This document shows, one piece after another, positions 174-18,708 of a DNA stretch of 21,722 nt. The stretch comes from a virus. Each line of letters starts with the position of its first letter. The stretch's first letter is position 1. The notes beneath the pieces were generated by a model. It saw only the letters and a program-made list of their open reading frames with translations. It ran no database searches and was not told where the DNA came from. The stretch lies in the IMG/VR virus record IMGVR_UViG_3300007344_000303, positions 1 to 21,722 of that record. One strand, written 5' to 3'. A program made the position numbers and the translations under genes.

Positions 174-2276
174 ATGGCTCGAATGACAAATGATCAGCGT
201 CTGGCGAATGTTCATCAAGACGCACTACATGAGTTCGACAGAATACAAAGTGCTCTGCGCGACGAGCGGTTGCAATGTTTAGAGGATCGTCGGTTCTACT
301 CGATCAACGGCGCTCAATGGGAAGGCAATCTGCTAGACCAATTTGAGAACAAGCCCCGGCTAGAAGTAAACAAGATCGCCCTGTCGGTCATGCGAATTAT
401 CAACGAGTACCGAAACAATCGCGTCACCGTTGATTTTACATCGAAAGATGGAACTGCAAATGACAAGCTAGCAGATGTCTGCGATGGCCTGTATCGAGCG
501 GACGAAAAAGATTCGATTGCGAATGAAGCCTATGACAACGCGTTCGAGGAGGCAGTCGGTGGCGGGTTTGGTGCGTGGCGGTTACGGGCTGACTACGAGG
601 ACCACGAAAACGACGAGGACGAACGGCAAAGAATTTTAATTGAGCCGATCTATGACGCCGACAGCAGCGTCTGGTTCGACCTAGACTCTAAGCGTCAGGA
701 CAAGGCAGACGCCAAAGTCTGTTTTGTTATTAGCTCGCTGACCTACGACAGCTACCTGTCCGAGTACGGCGATGACCCCGCAAGCTGGCCTAAAACCGTT
801 CATCAATATGAATTTGACTGGCTAACGCCAGACGTAGTTTACGTTGCGGAATACTACAGGGTAGAAGAGGTTAGCGAGACTGTTAGAATTTTTGAAACTC
901 TGGACGGTTCTGAGGAAAGATACACGACCTACGACTTCAAGGAAGACGAGCAGCTTGAAGAAATGCTTGCCGCAGTCGGCACGAGGGAGATTCGCCAGAA
1001 GCGCGTGAAGAAGAAAAAGGTTCACAAGTACATCATGAGCGGCGCCAAGATCCTTGAGGATTGCGGATACATCGCTGGCAAGTGCATTCCGATTATCCCA
1101 GTTTTTGGCAAGCGTTGGTTCGTTGACAACATTGAGCGATGCATGGGCCATGTTAGGCTCGCCAAGGACGCGCAACGGCTGAAGAATATGCAGTTGTCAA
1201 AGCTGGCTGAGATTTCGGCGCTGAGCACTGTTGAGAAGCCAATTCTATTACCCGAACAGGTTGCCGGTCATCAAGTGATGTGGTCTGAAGATAACTTGAA
1301 AGACTACCCGTATCTGCTGGTTAATCCGATTTCAGATGCGAACGGCAATCAAGCAATCTCGGGTCCGGTCGGATACACAAAGCCGCCACAGATTCCCCCG
1401 GCAATGGCAGCTCTGTTGCAAATTACAGAGACAGACATGATGCAGATCATGGGAAACCAGACTGGTGGCGAGGAGATTGCTTCAAACATATCTGGAAAGG
1501 CTGTAGAGCTGATCCAGACGCGTTTAGACATGCAGACGTTTATTTATATGTCCAACTTTTCCAAGGCTATGAGGCGCTGTGGTGAGGTCTGGCTGAGCAT
1601 GGCAAAGGATGTCTACGTCGAAGAAGAACGTAAGATGAAGATCATCGATGTTACGGAGACGGTTGATAGTGTGACCTTGATGACCCCAGCGATTAGCGAG
1701 ATGGGCGAGATTATCACTGAGAATGATCTGTCGAAGGCCACGTTTGATGTGGACGTTGAGGTTGGTCCCAGCTCAAGCACGAAGAAGCAGGCAACCGTTC
1801 GAGCGTTGACCGGGATGATGCAGATTACTGCTGACCCAGAAATGCAAAGTGTTCTCGGCTCTATGGCGATGATGAACATGGAGGGCGAAGGTATTAGCGA
1901 GGTTCGTGACTTCTTCCGTCAGAAGCTGATCAGGATGGGCGTTGTACAGCCCACAGAGGCCGAGGCAGAGGAAATGATGGCTGCGATGCAGAATCAGCCG
2001 CCTGATCCGAACGCGGTGTTCTTACAGGCTGCGGCAGAGGAGGCTACGGCGAAGGCTGCTAAGGCGCGAGCAGATGTCGTTAAGACGATTGCGGACGCAG
2101 AGCTGCAACAGGCTAGGGTTCTGGAAACGGGCGCCAGCACAGATCTAGAGCAGGCTAAGACCTTAGAAACTTTGGCAGGCATTGAGCAAAGCAACGAGCG
2201 GGTAGCTAACGAGACCGAAGAGAAGTCCGTCAGAAGCGCCCGGCTGCTTCAAGACATGATCCGAGACATGCGCTAA
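174..2276 (+). CDS. Portal protein, P22 gp1-like
   Basis: The 700-residue protein is close to the length of P22 portal (725 aa). It begins with a helical region, followed by PRLEVNKI at about 61-68 and a motif rich in glycine (GGGFGAWRL, about 129-137), features seen in P22-type portal proteins. The last 80 or so residues are rich in Ala, Glu, Lys and Gln and should form a long helix, as in the C-terminal barrel that P22 portal projects into the capsid. The portal forms a dodecameric ring at one capsid vertex; DNA enters and leaves through it. The start at 174 is supported by GAGG at 163-166, about 7 bases upstream. The stop codon shares its last base with the next start (TAATG). Confidence 0.93.
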   Translation: MARMTNDQRLANVHQDALHEFDRIQSALRDERLQCLEDRRFYSINGAQWEGNLLDQFENKPRLEVNKIALSVMRIINEYRNNRVTVDFTSKDGTANDKLADVCDGLYRADEKDSIANEAYDNAFEEAVGGGFGAWRLRADYEDHENDEDERQRILIEPIYDADSSVWFDLDSKRQDKADAKVCFVISSLTYDSYLSEYGDDPASWPKTVHQYEFDWLTPDVVYVAEYYRVEEVSETVRIFETLDGSEERYTTYDFKEDEQLEEMLAAVGTREIRQKRVKKKKVHKYIMSGAKILEDCGYIAGKCIPIIPVFGKRWFVDNIERCMGHVRLAKDAQRLKNMQLSKLAEISALSTVEKPILLPEQVAGHQVMWSEDNLKDYPYLLVNPISDANGNQAISGPVGYTKPPQIPPAMAALLQITETDMMQIMGNQTGGEEIASNISGKAVELIQTRLDMQTFIYMSNFSKAMRRCGEVWLSMAKDVYVEEERKMKIIDVTETVDSVTLMTPAISEMGEIITENDLSKATFDVDVEVGPSSSTKKQATVRALTGMMQITADPEMQSVLGSMAMMNMEGEGISEVRDFFRQKLIRMGVVQPTEAEAEEMMAAMQNQPPDPNAVFLQAAAEEATAKAAKARADVVKTIADAELQQARVLETGASTDLEQAKTLETLAGIEQSNERVANETEEKSVRSARLLQDMIRDMR

Positions 2277-3406
2277 TGGCCTCGATGCGCGAACTGGCGA
2301 TGGAGTTACTGAGCCGGGCTGGTTCTGGCCCAGTTCTTCAGCCGACCAACGTGTTCGGGCAGGATCCTGATTTACCGATTGGATACGGTGAGGGTGAAAT
2401 ATCACCTTTAGACGCCGCTGCAATGTCAACGATGTTCGTGCCCGGGGTTGGTGATGTCACTGGCCTAGCGGCTGACGTTGATATGTACATGCGCGACCCT
2501 GAGTCCAGAAACATTCCTAATTACCTCCTTACCGCTGCCGGTGTGCTACCGTTCCTGCCTGCCGCGTCTCAGGTCCGTAAGGGTATCAAGGCATACCACG
2601 GCTCACCTTATGACTTTGATCGGTTCAGCACAGAGCAGATAGGCACCGGAGAGGGCGCACAGGCTTACGGTCAGGGCTTGTACTTTGCTGGAAATGAGGA
2701 TGTTGCTAGGGGTTACCGAGACGCTTTAACCGGCCCTAGAGTGCAAAGAGCGCAAAGTCTATTAAGGCAGTCGGGTAATGACGTTGATTTGGCAATAGAA
2801 AACGCAAAAAACGAAATTGATCGACTAAAGTCGCTGGATCTAACCCCAGAAACCGGATCTGCAAAAAGGGAAAGCTTAATTTCTTTGCAAGAAGAAAAGA
2901 TAGCCGAGCTGACCGAGCTTAAGAATAGCGGACAGATGAGTGAAGGCCGTATGTACGAAGTCAACATCGACGTAGAGCCTGATGAGTTGCTTCAGTGGGA
3001 CATTCCAATAAGCCAGCAAAGCGAAAAGGTTCAAGACGCTGTGTACGCAAATAGGGATGCCGTTGATCAAAGGATCGTGGACGATTACTTTGGAGGTGAC
3101 CGAAACAATATAATTAACGAAGACATGACTGGTCAGCAGTACATGGCAAACATGGATAAAGTAAACGCTGGCATGATTGATGGGACGGAGTACGAGTTGG
3201 CAGAACGTGGCGTTAAAGGCATCCGATACGCTGACGCATTCACCCGGCACAAGACCCCTGACAAGCGTTCTATGAACTACGTCATATTCGATGACCGACT
3301 GATCACCATTGCGAAGAAGTACGGCGTAGCGATTCCTGTGGCGGCTGCTATGCTTGCTAGGATGACCGGCGAAGATACCTCGCAAAGTTATCAAGAGGAA
3401 ACCTAA
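2276..3406 (+). CDS. Phage accessory protein with ADP-ribosyltransferase-like (polyvalent/MuF type) domain
   Basis: 376 aa. Residues about 50-100 are hydrophobic and glycine/alanine-rich (PGVGDVTGLAADVDMYMRDP), the kind of leader found in phage polyvalent proteins. Residues 106-145 carry AYHGSP (His108) and, after GTGEGAQAYGQ, GLYF (Tyr136); KGIRYAD (314-320) and NYVIFDDRLITI (334-345) follow. This pattern matches ADP-ribosyltransferase-like domains in phage polyvalent proteins, which would move ADP-ribose from NAD onto a target; which residue serves as the acidic catalytic residue is unclear, and E309 is only a candidate. Residues 351-363 form a hydrophobic helix before a tail ending EET. 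The start overlaps the portal stop and has a weak ribosome site, but the next gene begins with the same MASMREL, which supports it. Whether the protein is packaged and injected is inference. Confidence 0.72.
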   Translation: MASMRELAMELLSRAGSGPVLQPTNVFGQDPDLPIGYGEGEISPLDAAAMSTMFVPGVGDVTGLAADVDMYMRDPESRNIPNYLLTAAGVLPFLPAASQVRKGIKAYHGSPYDFDRFSTEQIGTGEGAQAYGQGLYFAGNEDVARGYRDALTGPRVQRAQSLLRQSGNDVDLAIENAKNEIDRLKSLDLTPETGSAKRESLISLQEEKIAELTELKNSGQMSEGRMYEVNIDVEPDELLQWDIPISQQSEKVQDAVYANRDAVDQRIVDDYFGGDRNNIINEDMTGQQYMANMDKVNAGMIDGTEYELAERGVKGIRYADAFTRHKTPDKRSMNYVIFDDRLITIAKKYGVAIPVAAAMLARMTGEDTSQSYQEET

Positions 3407-3408
3407 TC

Positions 3409-5136
3409 ATGGCTTCAATGCGCGAACTGTCAGAAGCAATTCTAGGCCAGACGATTCTCAACAAAGAGACCGAGGACTACATGATGACTCCTGCCGGGCC
3501 GATCAGGCGTCAAGATCCGTTCACGCCAGCACAGTTCGTGAACTTTGCCGCGTCAATGCAGCCCGGTGCTGGCATTGCAGATATGGCTGGTGAGCTGCCA
3601 ATGACGCCGGGACCAGAGGCTGGGATCACTGAGGCGTTCTCAGCAGAAGCTTACCCAAGCTTTGGCGAAAACATATCTGAAGGTGAGTACCTAGACGCAT
3701 TCTTGCAAGGCTTAGGCGGTGTTGGTGATGCGCTGTACGCAACGGGACCGTTAGGCGTAGCCGCTGGTTCGGTCTTGAAAGCACCAAGGGCGTTGTCAAA
3801 AGCTTCTAAAGTTGCAGATTCTGGCATTGCTGAGACCGCTCAACCAATTGATTCTGCGGATTTGCAGTTTTTGCACAACACTTCACCGGGGAAAATAGCT
3901 AGACAGCAAGCAATGGGCGGTATGCCAATGCCATCTTTAGCTGTGACTCGGCAAGACATACCGTTTGAAGGATTTGGTGACATCACTTTGGTAGGAGATC
4001 CAGCCAAGTTCGACCCCAAAAGAAGCAGATCTAACGTGGTTTACGATGCGGACGCTTACACAGTCAGAGCACCGTCTCCGGTTAGGCAGGCTAAAAAGGG
4101 CGCATATAAAAAACTTAATGAAGAATTTGGCGATATAGCCAGAAAGTACGATGGTTATTTAGATGAAGCTAAATATTTACTTGCCGATCTTGAAACCAAA
4201 AAAAACATAAGTTCTGACAAGTACAGCACCATTGAACGATTTTTTGAAAACGATGTAGTGACTGACATTGCATTTTTACAAGAGAAAGGAATTACAGATA
4301 TACCATTGCGAAAGTATGGGACCAACACTGCGGCTGATGGTAGTAAAATATCAGAAATGGTTAGAGAATTTGGTCAAGAACGAAAAGATTGGGCAAATAA
4401 AAAAATTAATCAATACTTTGATAGTGACGAATTATTCGTATCCAATCCAGACCGAGACTATTACACCACCGCCGCTAAACTTAAACCGTACACTGCTGAA
4501 GAAGTAACCAAATTCATGAAGCGAAAACGAGGCGCTGGTCAAGAGTCAGTTATTGGCACTGGCGTTGGCATGGTACGAGCCAACCTTGCAAAAGAATTAA
4601 AAAGCTTGCCTGAGATAAGATCAGAAAAAGGTCGATTGGTTACAGCAGAGGACGTTGCAGAATTTAAGTCTGAGATGGATTCAACATTGATTGACTTGCA
4701 AGACATCATGCAGCCATTTTATAAATACGATGCTGGAGGGTTCAGGTATCGAGACGAAGTTGGCGAAATGATATATGACTCAGATCGCATTGGCTTAGAC
4801 AGAGCGTTCGAAAAGTATGGGTTTGAAAACATACCTAGTAACATTAAGCAGGAAATAAGTGATTACAAAGCTCGCTTAAGATCAGGCCCAACAGAGTATT
4901 TTGAAGCCAAGCCGGGTCGTGCGGTTGATTTTTCCGACTTCAAAGGCGCGATTGTTCCAGTTGATACGCCTAAATCCACCGTTGATGCGTTAAAAAAAGC
5001 AGGTCTAAAAATTGAGTATTACCAAGGTGAAACCGAAAGGCTCGACGCTAGAATGAAATTTCCCGGGACGGCGTTCTCAATTGCTGGTGGAATAATCTTA
5101 GCAGGCACCGCAATGAAGGACAAAGAAGAAACATAA
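3409..5136 (+). CDS. Large accessory protein with polyvalent-protein conserved domain; sister of the preceding gene
   Basis: 575 aa, starting MASMREL like its upstream neighbour and ending in a hydrophobic helix (about 555-569) and KEET, again like its neighbour. After a glycine/alanine-rich leader (45-140), residues 153-224 hold FLHNTSPGKIARQ, GGMPMPSLAVT, GDITLVGDPAKFDP and a YDADAYTVRAPSP segment. This block recurs in large phage and mobile-element polyvalent proteins; its activity is not known to me. The C-terminal FKGAIVPVDTPKS to EYYQG segment (511-539) is also familiar from these proteins. The middle (about 230-490) is helical, charged and visibly richer in A and T than the surrounding genes. 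The start has GAGG at 3395-3398. The product may act in the host cell after injection, but this is inferred only from family and position. Confidence 0.6.
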   Translation: MASMRELSEAILGQTILNKETEDYMMTPAGPIRRQDPFTPAQFVNFAASMQPGAGIADMAGELPMTPGPEAGITEAFSAEAYPSFGENISEGEYLDAFLQGLGGVGDALYATGPLGVAAGSVLKAPRALSKASKVADSGIAETAQPIDSADLQFLHNTSPGKIARQQAMGGMPMPSLAVTRQDIPFEGFGDITLVGDPAKFDPKRSRSNVVYDADAYTVRAPSPVRQAKKGAYKKLNEEFGDIARKYDGYLDEAKYLLADLETKKNISSDKYSTIERFFENDVVTDIAFLQEKGITDIPLRKYGTNTAADGSKISEMVREFGQERKDWANKKINQYFDSDELFVSNPDRDYYTTAAKLKPYTAEEVTKFMKRKRGAGQESVIGTGVGMVRANLAKELKSLPEIRSEKGRLVTAEDVAEFKSEMDSTLIDLQDIMQPFYKYDAGGFRYRDEVGEMIYDSDRIGLDRAFEKYGFENIPSNIKQEISDYKARLRSGPTEYFEAKPGRAVDFSDFKGAIVPVDTPKSTVDALKKAGLKIEYYQGETERLDARMKFPGTAFSIAGGIILAGTAMKDKEET

Positions 5137-5152
5137 CTCCTTGCTGGTTGTG
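5134..5152 (-). repeat. Ribosome-site repeat, copy 3 (no real gene follows)
   Basis: Read on the minus strand this contains ACCAGCAAGGAG, and all 19 bases are identical to 5404-5422. It lies just past the hairpin at the end of the 80-aa reverse gene and overlaps the stop codon of the forward 575-aa gene. An ATG sits two bases beyond the AAGGAG (minus strand, 5134), opening only a 28-codon frame antisense to the forward gene (to 5048), so it looks like an orphan boundary of a missing gene rather than a working start. Confidence 0.75.
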
Positions 5153-5166
5153 GGGCGTTAAGCCCC
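5152..5166 (-). terminator. Short stop-codon hairpin at the end of the 80-aa reverse gene
   Basis: GGGGC, a five-base loop and GCCCC make a perfect 5-bp stem. The loop contains the TAA stop of the reverse gene (5158-5160). No U-tract follows on the minus strand, so it may stabilise the RNA end or mark a cassette border rather than act as an intrinsic terminator. Confidence 0.45.
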
Positions 5167-5400
5167 GTAATATTCGTATGATCCTTCACTGACTCGGTCT
5201 ATGACCTCATCCCAAAACTCTGATGCGGGTCCAGAGTACCAGTTGATAACAATCGACGGCGCATCGCTCGAAGACCAGTAATCTGTGCCGGGAGCATCAA
5301 TGCAAATGCTTTTGTCGGTCTTAGTGATTTCGCTGACGCCCCAGTCAATGACCCCGCCTTCTTCTTGGATGGCTTGAAGAGCTTGTTTTTTCGTTGCCAT
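5158..5400 (-). CDS. Small hypothetical phage protein (80 aa), reverse strand
   Basis: The start is set at the ATG at 5398-5400 (MATKKQALQA) because AAGGAG lies 6 bases upstream within the repeated cassette; a longer in-frame start at 5445 would begin inside the upstream gene and has no such site. The 80-residue product is acidic, with a short helix at the N-terminus, then a middle rich in aromatic residues and serine (TDYWSSSDAPSIVINWYSG) and a second helix (EFWDEVIDRV). No signal peptide or membrane segment is visible, so it is probably cytoplasmic. I do not recognise the family. It lies downstream of the peptidase-like reverse gene with the same kind of ribosome site, so the two are probably co-transcribed, away from the virion genes. 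Confidence 0.7.
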   Translation of the reverse strand: MATKKQALQAIQEEGGVIDWGVSEITKTDKSICIDAPGTDYWSSSDAPSIVINWYSGPASEFWDEVIDRVSEGSYEYYGA

Positions 5401-5403
5401 TGT

Positions 5404-5422
5404 TAACTCCTTGCTGGTTGTG
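5404..5422 (-). repeat. Ribosome-site repeat, copy 2 (drives the 80-aa reverse gene)
   Basis: Identical over 19 bases to 5134-5152. It carries the AAGGAG (5407-5412) that sits 6 bases before the ATG at 5400. It lies between the stop hairpin of the upstream reverse gene and the start of the downstream one. Confidence 0.8.
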
Positions 5423-5440
5423 CAGCGGCTTATGCCGCTG
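5423..5440 (-). terminator. Stop-codon hairpin at the end of the peptidase-like reverse gene
   Basis: CAGCGGC and GCCGCTG form a perfect 7-bp stem with a four-base loop that overlaps the TAA stop (5430-5432). There is no U-tract on the minus strand, and the ribosome-site repeat begins directly after it. It could be an attenuator, an RNA-stability element or a remnant of cassette assembly. Confidence 0.5.
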
Positions 5441-5804: not shown

Positions 5805-5811
5805 TCTGTAT

Positions 5812-5824
5812 CTCCTTGCTGGTT
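5812..5824 (-). repeat. Ribosome-site repeat, copy 1 (drives the peptidase-like gene)
   Basis: Minus-strand AACCAGCAAGGAG, identical over 13 bases to the other two copies at 5134-5152 and 5404-5422. It provides the ribosome binding site of the 124-aa reverse gene. Similarity ends sharply upstream of the core. Confidence 0.75.
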
Positions 5825-5862
5825 AAGTGCCGCCGAACCCCGACCACAAAAGAAGTATCTCA

Positions 5863-5983: not shown

Positions 5984-6862
5984 ATGAACGAGGCAGTAGA
6001 GGGAGTTGACTATCAGGAAGAGGAAACGATTGAGGATGAGCAGCTTGAGCTTGAGGAAGATGTCACCGAAGACCTAGAGGTCGAAGATGATCCAAGCGAA
6101 GAGGTTGAAGAATCCGAAGACGAGGAATCTGATGAGATAGTGATATCCATCGGGGAGGAACCGCCCCCTCCAGAACCAGAACCAGCACCGGAGTGGGTCC
6201 GGGAGCTTAGAAAATCACACAGGGAGTTGCAGAGACGTAATCGTGAGCTAGAGGCAAAAATCCAACAGGCACCTGAGACCAATCCAGTTGTCACGCTAGG
6301 AGCGAAGCCAAGTCTAGAGTCATATGATTACGACACCGAGAAGTATGAGGCGTCACTTGCTGATTGGTACGAGCGGAAACGCTTAGTCGATGAGCAGGAG
6401 GCTAAGGCAAGGCAGGCTGAGCAACAGCAGGCCGAAGCTTGGCAACAAAAGTTGCAGGGCTACGCCGAGGCCAAGACCAAGCTGAAGGTGAAGGACTATG
6501 ACGATGCTGAGGAAGTTGCCCAGCAGACGTTCAATGTCGTTCAACAAGGCGTCATGATTCAAGGTGCTGAAGACCCGGCGTTGGTGATCTACGCTCTTGG
6601 AAAGAATCCCAAGAAGGCGAAGGAACTGGCACAGATAGACGATCCCGTAAAGTTTGCCTTTGCGGTTGCAAAATTGGAGAGTCAATTGAAAATTTCAAAT
6701 CGTAAGGCAGCAACACGGCCCGAGAAACAAGTCTCGGCAACGGCCCCGATAAAGGGTGCTGTGGACTCAACCCTAGAACGGCTGCGAGAAGAAGCGGCGC
6801 GGACAGGTAACATGGATAAGGTCATGGCCTATAAGCGCGCGCAGAAACGAGCGGCGAAATAA
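5984..6862 (+). CDS. Scaffolding protein
   Basis: 292 aa, near the size of P22 gp8 (303 aa) and directly before the coat gene, as in P22. The first 70 residues are extremely acidic (long runs of Glu and Asp), followed by a proline-rich hinge (59-69) and a charged, probably coiled-coil segment (71-95). The rest is helical, and the last 30 residues are basic (VMAYKRAQKRAAK), like the basic C-terminal coat-binding helices of phage scaffolds. The protein would direct coat assembly into proheads and then leave. AGGGA lies 9-13 bases upstream of the ATG. The start follows the dyad-rich control region, so this gene probably heads a transcript with the coat gene. The sequence is too low in complexity for a firm family match; position carries much of the call. 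Confidence 0.82.
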   Translation: MNEAVEGVDYQEEETIEDEQLELEEDVTEDLEVEDDPSEEVEESEDEESDEIVISIGEEPPPPEPEPAPEWVRELRKSHRELQRRNRELEAKIQQAPETNPVVTLGAKPSLESYDYDTEKYEASLADWYERKRLVDEQEAKARQAEQQQAEAWQQKLQGYAEAKTKLKVKDYDDAEEVAQQTFNVVQQGVMIQGAEDPALVIYALGKNPKKAKELAQIDDPVKFAFAVAKLESQLKISNRKAATRPEKQVSATAPIKGAVDSTLERLREEAARTGNMDKVMAYKRAQKRAAK

Positions 6863-16701: not shown

Positions 16702-18708
16702 ATGGCAACAGATTACGAAGCTTTAGCAAAACAATACGGTGCCGTATTTACGCCCGATGAGGTTGTTGAAACTGATAAAGATGAAATTGATCAACTTACT
16801 TCAGACAAAGAAGTTGATTACTTTGCTTTGGCTGAAGAATATGGCGCTGTATTTACGCCGACTCCTGAAATACCACAAATGGATGCGTCTGGCGAGGTTA
16901 CATTGCCCGGCGTTGACCTCGGCCCTAAGATGCCTGAAGACCCAATACTTGCTAAAGAACGGTTGCTAGGTGCTGCTGAAGTTTTAACAACACTTGCCAC
17001 CGCTCCGACTACAGGCGCTTTAGGAATGCTAGGCGGCACAATTGGTGGACTGACTGCTGCCATATTGCGCGGAGAGTTCGGCACACCAGAAGCCGCTCGT
17101 CTGATAGAACAGGCCGCTGCCGGTGGTATGGAGCAGTTAACTTACGCGCCTAGAACTGAAGCCGGTCAACAATATATGCAGGCGATTGCAGAGCCGTTAG
17201 AGGCTGCTCCTGCGTTTGTTCCTGCTATGGGCGCTGCTGGGGCGATTCCAGCCGCTCTAACTGCTGGTGGGCAAGCAGTCAGGACTGCGGCTCCAAGGGT
17301 TGCTGAGGCTGCCAGACGAGTAATGCCTCAGCGTCCGATGGCTGGCGAGTTAATGGAAAGGCCGCAAAAGGTCGGCCCCGCTAGGGTAATGCCTGAAGAG
17401 ATTATTATTGAGGAGGGCCTACCGCCCAGAAGCGTTGGGGCGGCAGAGGTTCCCGTTGAAGTGGTAAGGCGTGAAGTTGCCGCGCAGATGCCGGTGCCAT
17501 TTGAGGGCAGAACAGGCTTAACGGCTGGTCAAGCTACCCGGGACTTTGCTCAGTTACAGTTTGAGAAGGAAACTGCAAAGCTTGGTGAAATTGGTGCCCC
17601 GTTGCGTGAAAGGGTACAGGCTCAGACTGCAAACTTTATTGATAACTTTGACGCCTTGATTGACTTGCCAACACCGATTGAACGTGAGGTTCGAGCGATC
17701 GGCATGGCAGTTGACAGTGCTGTTAAAAATAAAGCTGAAGTACAACGTAAGAAAATACAAAAATTATATAAACAGGCAGACGAGGCCGGGGATACTTTAG
17801 GCTTGGTTGAAATGCAACCTTTGGTCTTGGCGCTTGAAGACTTGGCAAGGTTTGAGGGCGTTGCAGGAAATGTTGGCCCAATCAGAAAAGAGGCTACTCG
17901 CCTCGGCGCTATTGCCGTCAATGAAGAAGGCAATTTAATTGCTCAAGAATTAAGCATCAAGGATGCAGAATTATTAAGACAATTTGTAAACCAAGCCACT
18001 GACTGGGCTGACAAGCGACAGTCATTAATGGCTAGAAAAATAAATGCTGCTATCGATAGCTCAACAGAGGGCTTAGGTGGCGAAATATATAAAAGAGCCA
18101 GACGAGAACGTGCAAAGTACGCAGAAGAATTTGAGAACGTAGGATTAACTGCAAAGCTTTTAGCCAAAAAGGGTAACACCTCTGAGCGAGCAATTGCCTT
18201 TGAGGATGTGTTCAACAAAATCATTATCCTGTCGCCAGTTGAAGAAATGAACAAGCTGCGACGAACGCTCCTTAAAGCGGGTCCAGATGGGCGTCAGGCT
18301 TGGGCTGATTTGAAGGCTCAGGGTATAGAATTTATTAAAGATCGAAGCCTGTCAGTAAGTCAAAAGGACGCAGCAGGAAATCCGTTACTTTCACCTGACA
18401 AGCTACAAAAAGTTATTAAGGCGCTTGACAATGATGGAAAATTAGAATCGCTGTACGGTAAAAAGATAGCGCAGCAGTTAAGGGATTTGGCTGAATTGTC
18501 AACTGTGATTTACACTGCGCCCCCGGGATCGGTTAACTTTTCCAACACCGCATCGGCTATTGGCAATGCAGTAGATACGATACTGACCTACGGTATCTCT
18601 GGAATGCCAATTGCTGGAAGGGCCGTATTAAAAGAATCGCTTGACTATGTAAAAAATCGTAAACTCAAAGCTAGGATCAGAGAAGCTCTGAAGGAGCCAA
18701 AAGAATGA
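16702..18708 (+). CDS. Ejection protein, gp16-like by position, with N-terminal tandem repeat
   Basis: 668 aa (P22 gp16 is 609 aa). Residues 4-18 and 39-53 repeat DYxALAxxYGAVFTP. Residues 92-123 are hydrophobic and glycine-rich (TTGALGMLGGTIGGLTAAIL) and could insert in a membrane; another small-residue-rich stretch (168-200) follows. From about 270 the protein is charged and helical (coiled-coil-like QKKIQKLYKQ region), ending near a short hydrophobic helix and a basic tail (VKNRKLKARIREALKEPKE). No lysozyme or transglycosylase motif is evident. It is probably packaged and delivered to the host membrane. The last bases contain AAGGAG serving the tailspike, whose ATG overlaps the stop (ATGA). 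Confidence 0.72.
   Translation: MATDYEALAKQYGAVFTPDEVVETDKDEIDQLTSDKEVDYFALAEEYGAVFTPTPEIPQMDASGEVTLPGVDLGPKMPEDPILAKERLLGAAEVLTTLATAPTTGALGMLGGTIGGLTAAILRGEFGTPEAARLIEQAAAGGMEQLTYAPRTEAGQQYMQAIAEPLEAAPAFVPAMGAAGAIPAALTAGGQAVRTAAPRVAEAARRVMPQRPMAGELMERPQKVGPARVMPEEIIIEEGLPPRSVGAAEVPVEVVRREVAAQMPVPFEGRTGLTAGQATRDFAQLQFEKETAKLGEIGAPLRERVQAQTANFIDNFDALIDLPTPIEREVRAIGMAVDSAVKNKAEVQRKKIQKLYKQADEAGDTLGLVEMQPLVLALEDLARFEGVAGNVGPIRKEATRLGAIAVNEEGNLIAQELSIKDAELLRQFVNQATDWADKRQSLMARKINAAIDSSTEGLGGEIYKRARRERAKYAEEFENVGLTAKLLAKKGNTSERAIAFEDVFNKIIILSPVEEMNKLRRTLLKAGPDGRQAWADLKAQGIEFIKDRSLSVSQKDAAGNPLLSPDKLQKVIKALDNDGKLESLYGKKIAQQLRDLAELSTVIYTAPPGSVNFSNTASAIGNAVDTILTYGISGMPIAGRAVLKESLDYVKNRKLKARIREALKEPKE
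16711..16860 (+). repeat. Tandem 15-residue repeat in the gp16-like protein
   Basis: Codons 16711-16755 and 16816-16860 encode DYEALAKQYGAVFTP and DYFALAEEYGAVFTP, identical at 12 of 15 positions. The DNA differs at several silent sites, so the peptide seems to be kept by selection. Confidence 0.8.

Follow-up and report, generated by a model that had tools for sequence, protein, structure and literature searches.

Neighbouring genes beside a P22-type portal gene combine short tags and conserved leaders with exchangeable effector-like cores

The window analysed here is a 21,722-nucleotide stretch of viral DNA (IMG/VR record IMGVR_UViG_3300007344_000303, positions 1 to 21,722), in which two accessory genes follow one another head to tail between a portal gene and a scaffold gene, on the strand of the head genes. 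We refer to their sites as slots A and B, and to their products as proteins A and B. The stop codon of the portal gene overlaps the start of A (TAATG), and the coat gene, with the scaffold gene, also lies downstream of the pair. The IMG/VR contigs or loci that we compared with the window are designated by L-numbers (L005, L008, L017, L023 etc.), and a further contig of 34 kb is near-identical to the window. The features of the window that concern us are the following.

174-2276, + strand: P22-type portal gene (PF16510, E 6.9e-163), directly upstream of A
2276-3406, + strand: slot A gene, encoding protein A of 376 amino acids (aa), with tag, leader A, ADP-ribosyltransferase (ART)-like core and hydrophobic C-terminus
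2276-2320, + strand: tag of A, MASMRELAMELLSRA, with a helix at 4-14 in a low-confidence model
2396-2587, + strand: leader A module (residues 41-104), hydrophobic and conserved across core changes
2588-3340, + strand: ART-like core of A, with the conserved motifs YHGSP, GTGEGxQAYGxGLYF and NYVIFDD
3299-3364, + strand: hydrophobic stretch near the end of A, of which the start, KKYG, belongs to the ART core family and is followed by variable residues
3393-3408, + strand: Shine-Dalgarno sequence of slot B, AAGAGGA, within the terminal EET codons of A
3409-5136, + strand: slot B gene, encoding protein B of 575 aa, with tag, leader B, PBECR5 core and hydrophobic C-terminus
3409-3510, + strand: tag region of B, MASMRELSEAILGQTILNKETEDYMMTPAGPIRR, 100% kept in L007 though the next leader differs
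3523-3795, + strand: leader B module of 91 aa, from a family found in 151 IMG/VR contigs
3853-4422, + strand: PBECR5 nuclease-like domain of B (residues 149-338; PF18814, 84.8 bits)
5059-5115, + strand: hydrophobic stretch near the end of B, shared by other PBECR5 cores, whose ends lack EET
5984-6862, + strand: P22-type scaffold gene (PF09306, 30.6 bits; phrog_648, E 2.9e-57), the downstream border of the cassette
16702-18708, + strand: ejection-type protein of the same phage in the gene-16 position, with an LTYxPRTExGQ-like motif as in the slot B leaders of L008 and L019

Comparison with related contigs shows the portal-scaffold interval to be a two-slot cassette in which the leaders stay while the cores are replaced at a sharp junction. 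The order portal, slot A, slot B, scaffold is the same in IMG/VR contigs with portals 88-100% identical to that of the window. L023 carries leader A at 92% identity (residues 1-102) and is unrelated beyond it; likewise, L017 carries leader B at 97% identity (residues 1-145) and is unrelated beyond, and its core is 88-92% identical to those of L008 and L050, which follow a different leader. At this junction in L017, DNA identity drops from some 96-100% to about 25% over roughly 45-90 bases. In L005 the first 34 codons of B are almost unchanged and the remainder is divergent. This exchange of leaders and cores among relatives supports the proposal, made in a preliminary description of the window, that an N-terminal tag and leader serve interchangeable effector cores beside the portal. 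In the named relatives whose portals come closest to that of the window (72, 60, and 51% identity), the scaffold gene follows the portal gene immediately, which leaves the site empty. The more distant P22-like contigs L127 and L135 encode a single large ART protein there, and in Sulfitobacter phage PhiGT1 an ART relative occupies this interval.

That the two cores differ, as the preliminary description had also held, is borne out for B by a clear match to PBECR5 (84.8 bits against a curated cut-off of 25). Protein A reaches only 26.1 bits (E 1.7e-5) against ART-PolyVal (PF18760), below the curated cut-off of 31.2, and we therefore name it only ART-like; its relatives in L014 and L183 score 31.3 and 58.7 bits against the same model. 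The AlphaFold model of A is poor (predicted local distance difference test, pLDDT, 50.7) and that of B moderate (pLDDT 65.7); structure comparison of the latter gave a best Z of 5.2 with no family standing out, and we conclude nothing from it. One catalytic domain is recognised in each of A and B, and a multi-domain fusion is seen in the relative L183 (5914-9975), in which a single leader B precedes ART-PolyVal, PBECR5 and a DUF3990 match in one protein, an arrangement that suggests that the ART and PBECR5 activities may work together.

Both proteins start with MASMREL and end with EET, both have hydrophobic, Gly/Ala-rich leaders, and both have a hydrophobic stretch near the C-terminus, all as first described. 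The first 21 bases of the two genes are identical at 19 positions, the two changes both being synonymous. Alignment of the ends beyond the tag, which the idea of shared ends implied, does not succeed within the window: the N-terminal local alignment of A and B has p 0.026 if the tag is included but p 0.19 without its seven residues, the C-terminal ends give no significant alignment (p 0.21), and a profile-profile comparison of leader A with leader B, using shallow profiles, found no homology (probability 0.5%), so that the leaders count as different families here. What A and B share in the window is thus the tag and the composition; homology of their leaders is not supported. The match is longer in L008 and L018, where the slot B gene starts MASMRELAMQILSSSG, extending the likeness to slot A (MASMRELAMELLSRSG), and then continues with TEDYIMTPYGPVRR as in B. 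When IMG/VR was scanned for MASMREL-encoding DNA at gene starts, every tag-leader gene that emerged lay next to a portal, coat or scaffold gene of this type; the remaining matches were unrelated frames, many of them short. The search for further genes of this kind, suggested earlier, thus yielded relatives at the same head-gene site, while within the 34-kb contig the tag is confined to A and B. The slot A gene of L009 (3411-4409) has two successive tag-like starts, MASMRELARQLLG and then SSISELAMDLLSRAG, with the leader after them.

The C-terminal half of the original idea, a tag shared at the protein ends, had to be given up. In slot A the terminal EET codons read AGGAAAC[CG]TAA, preceded by AG or CG, and GAGGAAAC[CG]TAA ends 11/11 of the slot A genes compared, just 5' of the slot B start; L023 keeps this end although its C-terminus is otherwise unrelated. 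Because this invariant end bears the Shine-Dalgarno sequence of the next gene (in the window, some 9 bases before the ATG), the EET of A is best explained by translation of the slot B gene. EET as a protein tag in slot A was considered and rejected, since it coincides with the Shine-Dalgarno sequence of the next gene in all 11 genes. Of the 1012 distinct open reading frames (ORFs) of at least 200 aa in the sequences analysed, those ending in EET all belong to this family, being 16 genes of the slot A type and two B alleles. Downstream of B there is no close same-strand gene, and other proteins joining a leader to PBECR5 have different ends; the EET of B may therefore be a coincidence or a relic, perhaps of a slot A type end. 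Each of the hydrophobic C-terminal stretches is a feature of its own core family and not a shared tag. An ALxDMSPI-like C-terminal motif, common to the large ART proteins of L123, L127, L130, L141, and L143 (two portal types), is a possible C-terminal tag in other lineages.

Neither Pfam nor PHROG has a match to the leader B module. We confirmed it in 151 IMG/VR contigs and retrieved the best 80 of these; in the loci analysed it occurs in 79 ORFs, with up to three copies in one protein. Eighty leader-plus-core units group into 13 clusters when compared over the first 200 core residues, and Pfam matches on 51 non-redundant leader B proteins include ART-PolyVal (9), PBECR5 (6), RelA/SpoT (5), zeta toxin (2), and ParB (2). 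A leader gene follows the large terminase gene in L242, L234, L152, and L225, with the portal gene next in L242 and L234 (the L234 terminase being assigned from its position and its similarity to the L242 gene). Searches with leader A and four leader B variants against 50,697 phage records gave no match, though the BLAST low-complexity filter may hide some, and no relative could be confirmed when GTDB genomes were scanned with leader B. In L220 (2914-6834), one 1307-aa frame holds three leader B copies, each ahead of a different core.

Three further, unrelated phage lineages have adjacent effector genes that share an N-terminus of their own (L151/L152, z 25; L179, z 29; L251, z 19), and the tags, judged by eye, differ among lineages. 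In L152 the neighbours start MAGILDTIRSRVQEDPVAQYLADTYRGAG and MAGILETIRSRVSNDPVTQYIFDIYRGAG; after the tag, one of the two neighbours in L151/L152 has leader A and an ART core, and the other leader B and another core. Both L179 neighbours start MDQ[FY]RGAY[QN]QGLL. In L251, GFARRMMAQRLM is present in both neighbours, which have about 155 residues in common at 59% identity, and in L155 neighbouring leader B copies are 53% identical, one standing before an ART and the other before a PBECR5 core. Similarity past the first seven residues, which the earlier account had looked for in other phages, is therefore found: the N-termini of adjacent effector genes align far beyond that length in these phages. 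RGLL-like motifs also occur near the N- and C-termini of effector-like genes between terminase and portal in L179, L234, and L242.

One class of leader leads to the ejection proteins. The slot B leader of L008 retrieves gene 17 (NVP1275O_17) of Vibrio phage 1.275.O from the phage collection (tblastn E 6e-8), and pairwise the two are 34% identical over 146 aa. NVP1275O_17 is flanked by a protein that weakly matches P22 Inj_translocase and by a P22-type tailspike, which is the position of P22 gene 16. By this alignment, a third type of slot B leader, carried by L008, L018, L050, L066, and L070, is homologous to the ejection protein that a P22-like Vibrio phage encodes in the gene-16 position. 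The slot B genes differ from ejection proteins of the gene-16 position in having effector cores after the leader, and in sitting between portal and scaffold instead of in the ejection cluster. The window itself encodes a protein of this position (16702-18708); its homologue in Pseudomonas phage AH02 is gene 13, which comes after a P22-like injection translocase. The LTYxPRTExGQ-like pattern common to this protein and the slot B leaders of L008 and L019 occurs in only these three protein types in 1.2 million ORF residues, and in none after shuffling; since we chose the pattern after seeing the sequences, the count is only supportive. The same window protein has an N-terminal near-repeat, DYEALAKQYGAVFTP and DYFALAEEYGAVFTP.

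A common N-terminus on separate adjacent genes had been called an unusual arrangement, which is too strong: the internal proteins Ip1-3 of phage T4 are non-homologous accessory proteins that share only an N-terminal leader, which directs their packaging and injection, and the set varies among phages (PMC12373910). As in T4, neighbouring unrelated proteins here have a common N-terminus (MASMREL in the window, and more strongly in L151/L152, L179, and L251), whereas the P22 head, the longer hydrophobic leaders and the catalogued enzyme domains of the cores set the present system apart. The likeness that we claim is confined to arrangement ("works like"), and packaging would have to be supposed for A and B. 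A second parallel is with the MuF polymorphic toxins of temperate phages, which have a constant N-terminal region and a variable toxin end, and are encoded directly downstream of the portal gene (PMC5576092). The constant N-terminus, variable core and site directly 3' of the portal agree with these, but there are two tagged genes instead of one, and no MuF domain: none was matched by A or B up to E 1, nor by the 51 leader B proteins at E 0.001. A PF00589 integrase was not found in the 34-kb contig, which may be incomplete, and other recombinases were not searched. Finally, polyvalent proteins carry effector domains such as ART, PBECR, RelA/SpoT, and ParB, and their genes are generally beside virion genes (Iyer et al. 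2017; PMC5512222). The present genes resemble them in carrying these domains near virion genes (portal upstream; scaffold and coat downstream). They depart from that account in the leader family and in lineage-specific tags on separate neighbouring genes; the word "leader" is absent from its main text (PMC5512222).

We consider it reasonably probable that the leaders load and eject interchangeable effectors, in the style of T4 internal proteins and MuF toxins but with apparently unrelated leaders. Each cassette gene would then be built of three parts: a short N-terminal tag specific to the lineage, a leader that is hydrophobic, and a core open to exchange. Proteins A and B would be made late, together with the head genes; tag and leader would place them in the procapsid, at the portal or alongside the ejection proteins, giving the virion packaging that we infer for both; the hydrophobic leader would carry them into the host cell along with the DNA; and inside, the ART-like core of A and the RNase-like core of B would hit host targets or defences. 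We hold more tentatively, as a possibility that falls somewhat short of an even chance, that several unrelated phage lineages each have their own N-terminal address, common to neighbouring effector genes and sufficient for cargo loading and injection, which is borrowed from or matched to their own portal, scaffold or ejection proteins and so permits free core exchange. Several results weigh against loading and ejection by the leaders. The tag is no more amphipathic than other N-termini of this phage; the effector-like second gene of L234 and L242 lacks a shared tag, so that sharing is not universal; and homology to an ejection protein is clear only for the L008/L018/L050/L066/L070 leader class, not for the leaders of A and B in the window.

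Gly/Ala-rich hydrophobic leaders and hydrophobic C-terminal stretches would also suit proteins that, once made in the infected cell, go to the membrane or surface of the host, serve there in takeover, in the timing of lysis or in excluding other phages, and are never packaged. We think this rather improbable, given the head-operon position with coupling to the portal, the ejection-protein homology seen for one leader class, and the general placement of polyvalent proteins next to virion genes. The shared starts could instead be a seam of recombination and translation, at which conserved start-codon and Shine-Dalgarno DNA aids both swapping and translation and the peptide has no role; the 19/21 identity of the first bases of A and B, the slot B Shine-Dalgarno sequence held in slot A ends and the breakpoints at leader ends would all fit, and this explanation does account for the EET of A. 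However, leader A is kept over 102 residues, and between close relatives with the same kind of core its nonsynonymous divergence (dN 0.01-0.03) is far below the synonymous (dS 0.14-0.36), while the SMxEL residues are retained in L010 and L019 despite altered codons. On this substitution pattern leader A is under purifying selection as a protein, and the mostly synonymous change, with SMxEL encoded by other codons, argues that the peptide is selected and is not a mere recombination arm. Leader B, moreover, retains invariant residues across phages at about 45% identity, and other lineages have different, longer shared N-termini, which together make a seam without a role for the peptide unlikely. 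One gene start could also have been duplicated in part not long ago, after which the cores diverged and a pair without a functional tag was left. Such an origin would be consistent with a window pair that shares only 7 to 12 residues and has leaders not detectably homologous; the recurrence of the arrangement in three further lineages with other sequences, and the persistence of tags through core swaps in many contigs, make it very improbable. Loading and ejection by the leaders is thus the explanation that we prefer.

To our knowledge, the means by which P22-like and related phages select injected accessory proteins are little understood beyond T4, MuF, and a few other cases. A recognisable leader family that neither Pfam nor PHROG contains offers a way to locate injected effectors by their sequence alone, among them those whose cores have no known domain, and it is a testable candidate packaging signal.

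Between slot B and the scaffold gene, a 34-base element consisting of TAACTCCTTGCTGG and a GC-rich stretch occurs three times (5134-5167, 5404-5437, and 5809-5842). The copies carry AAGGAG on the minus strand, and two of the three precede small minus-strand ORFs. The first copy adjoins the stop codon of B and has no such ORF, as if the end of B had displaced a minus-strand gene.

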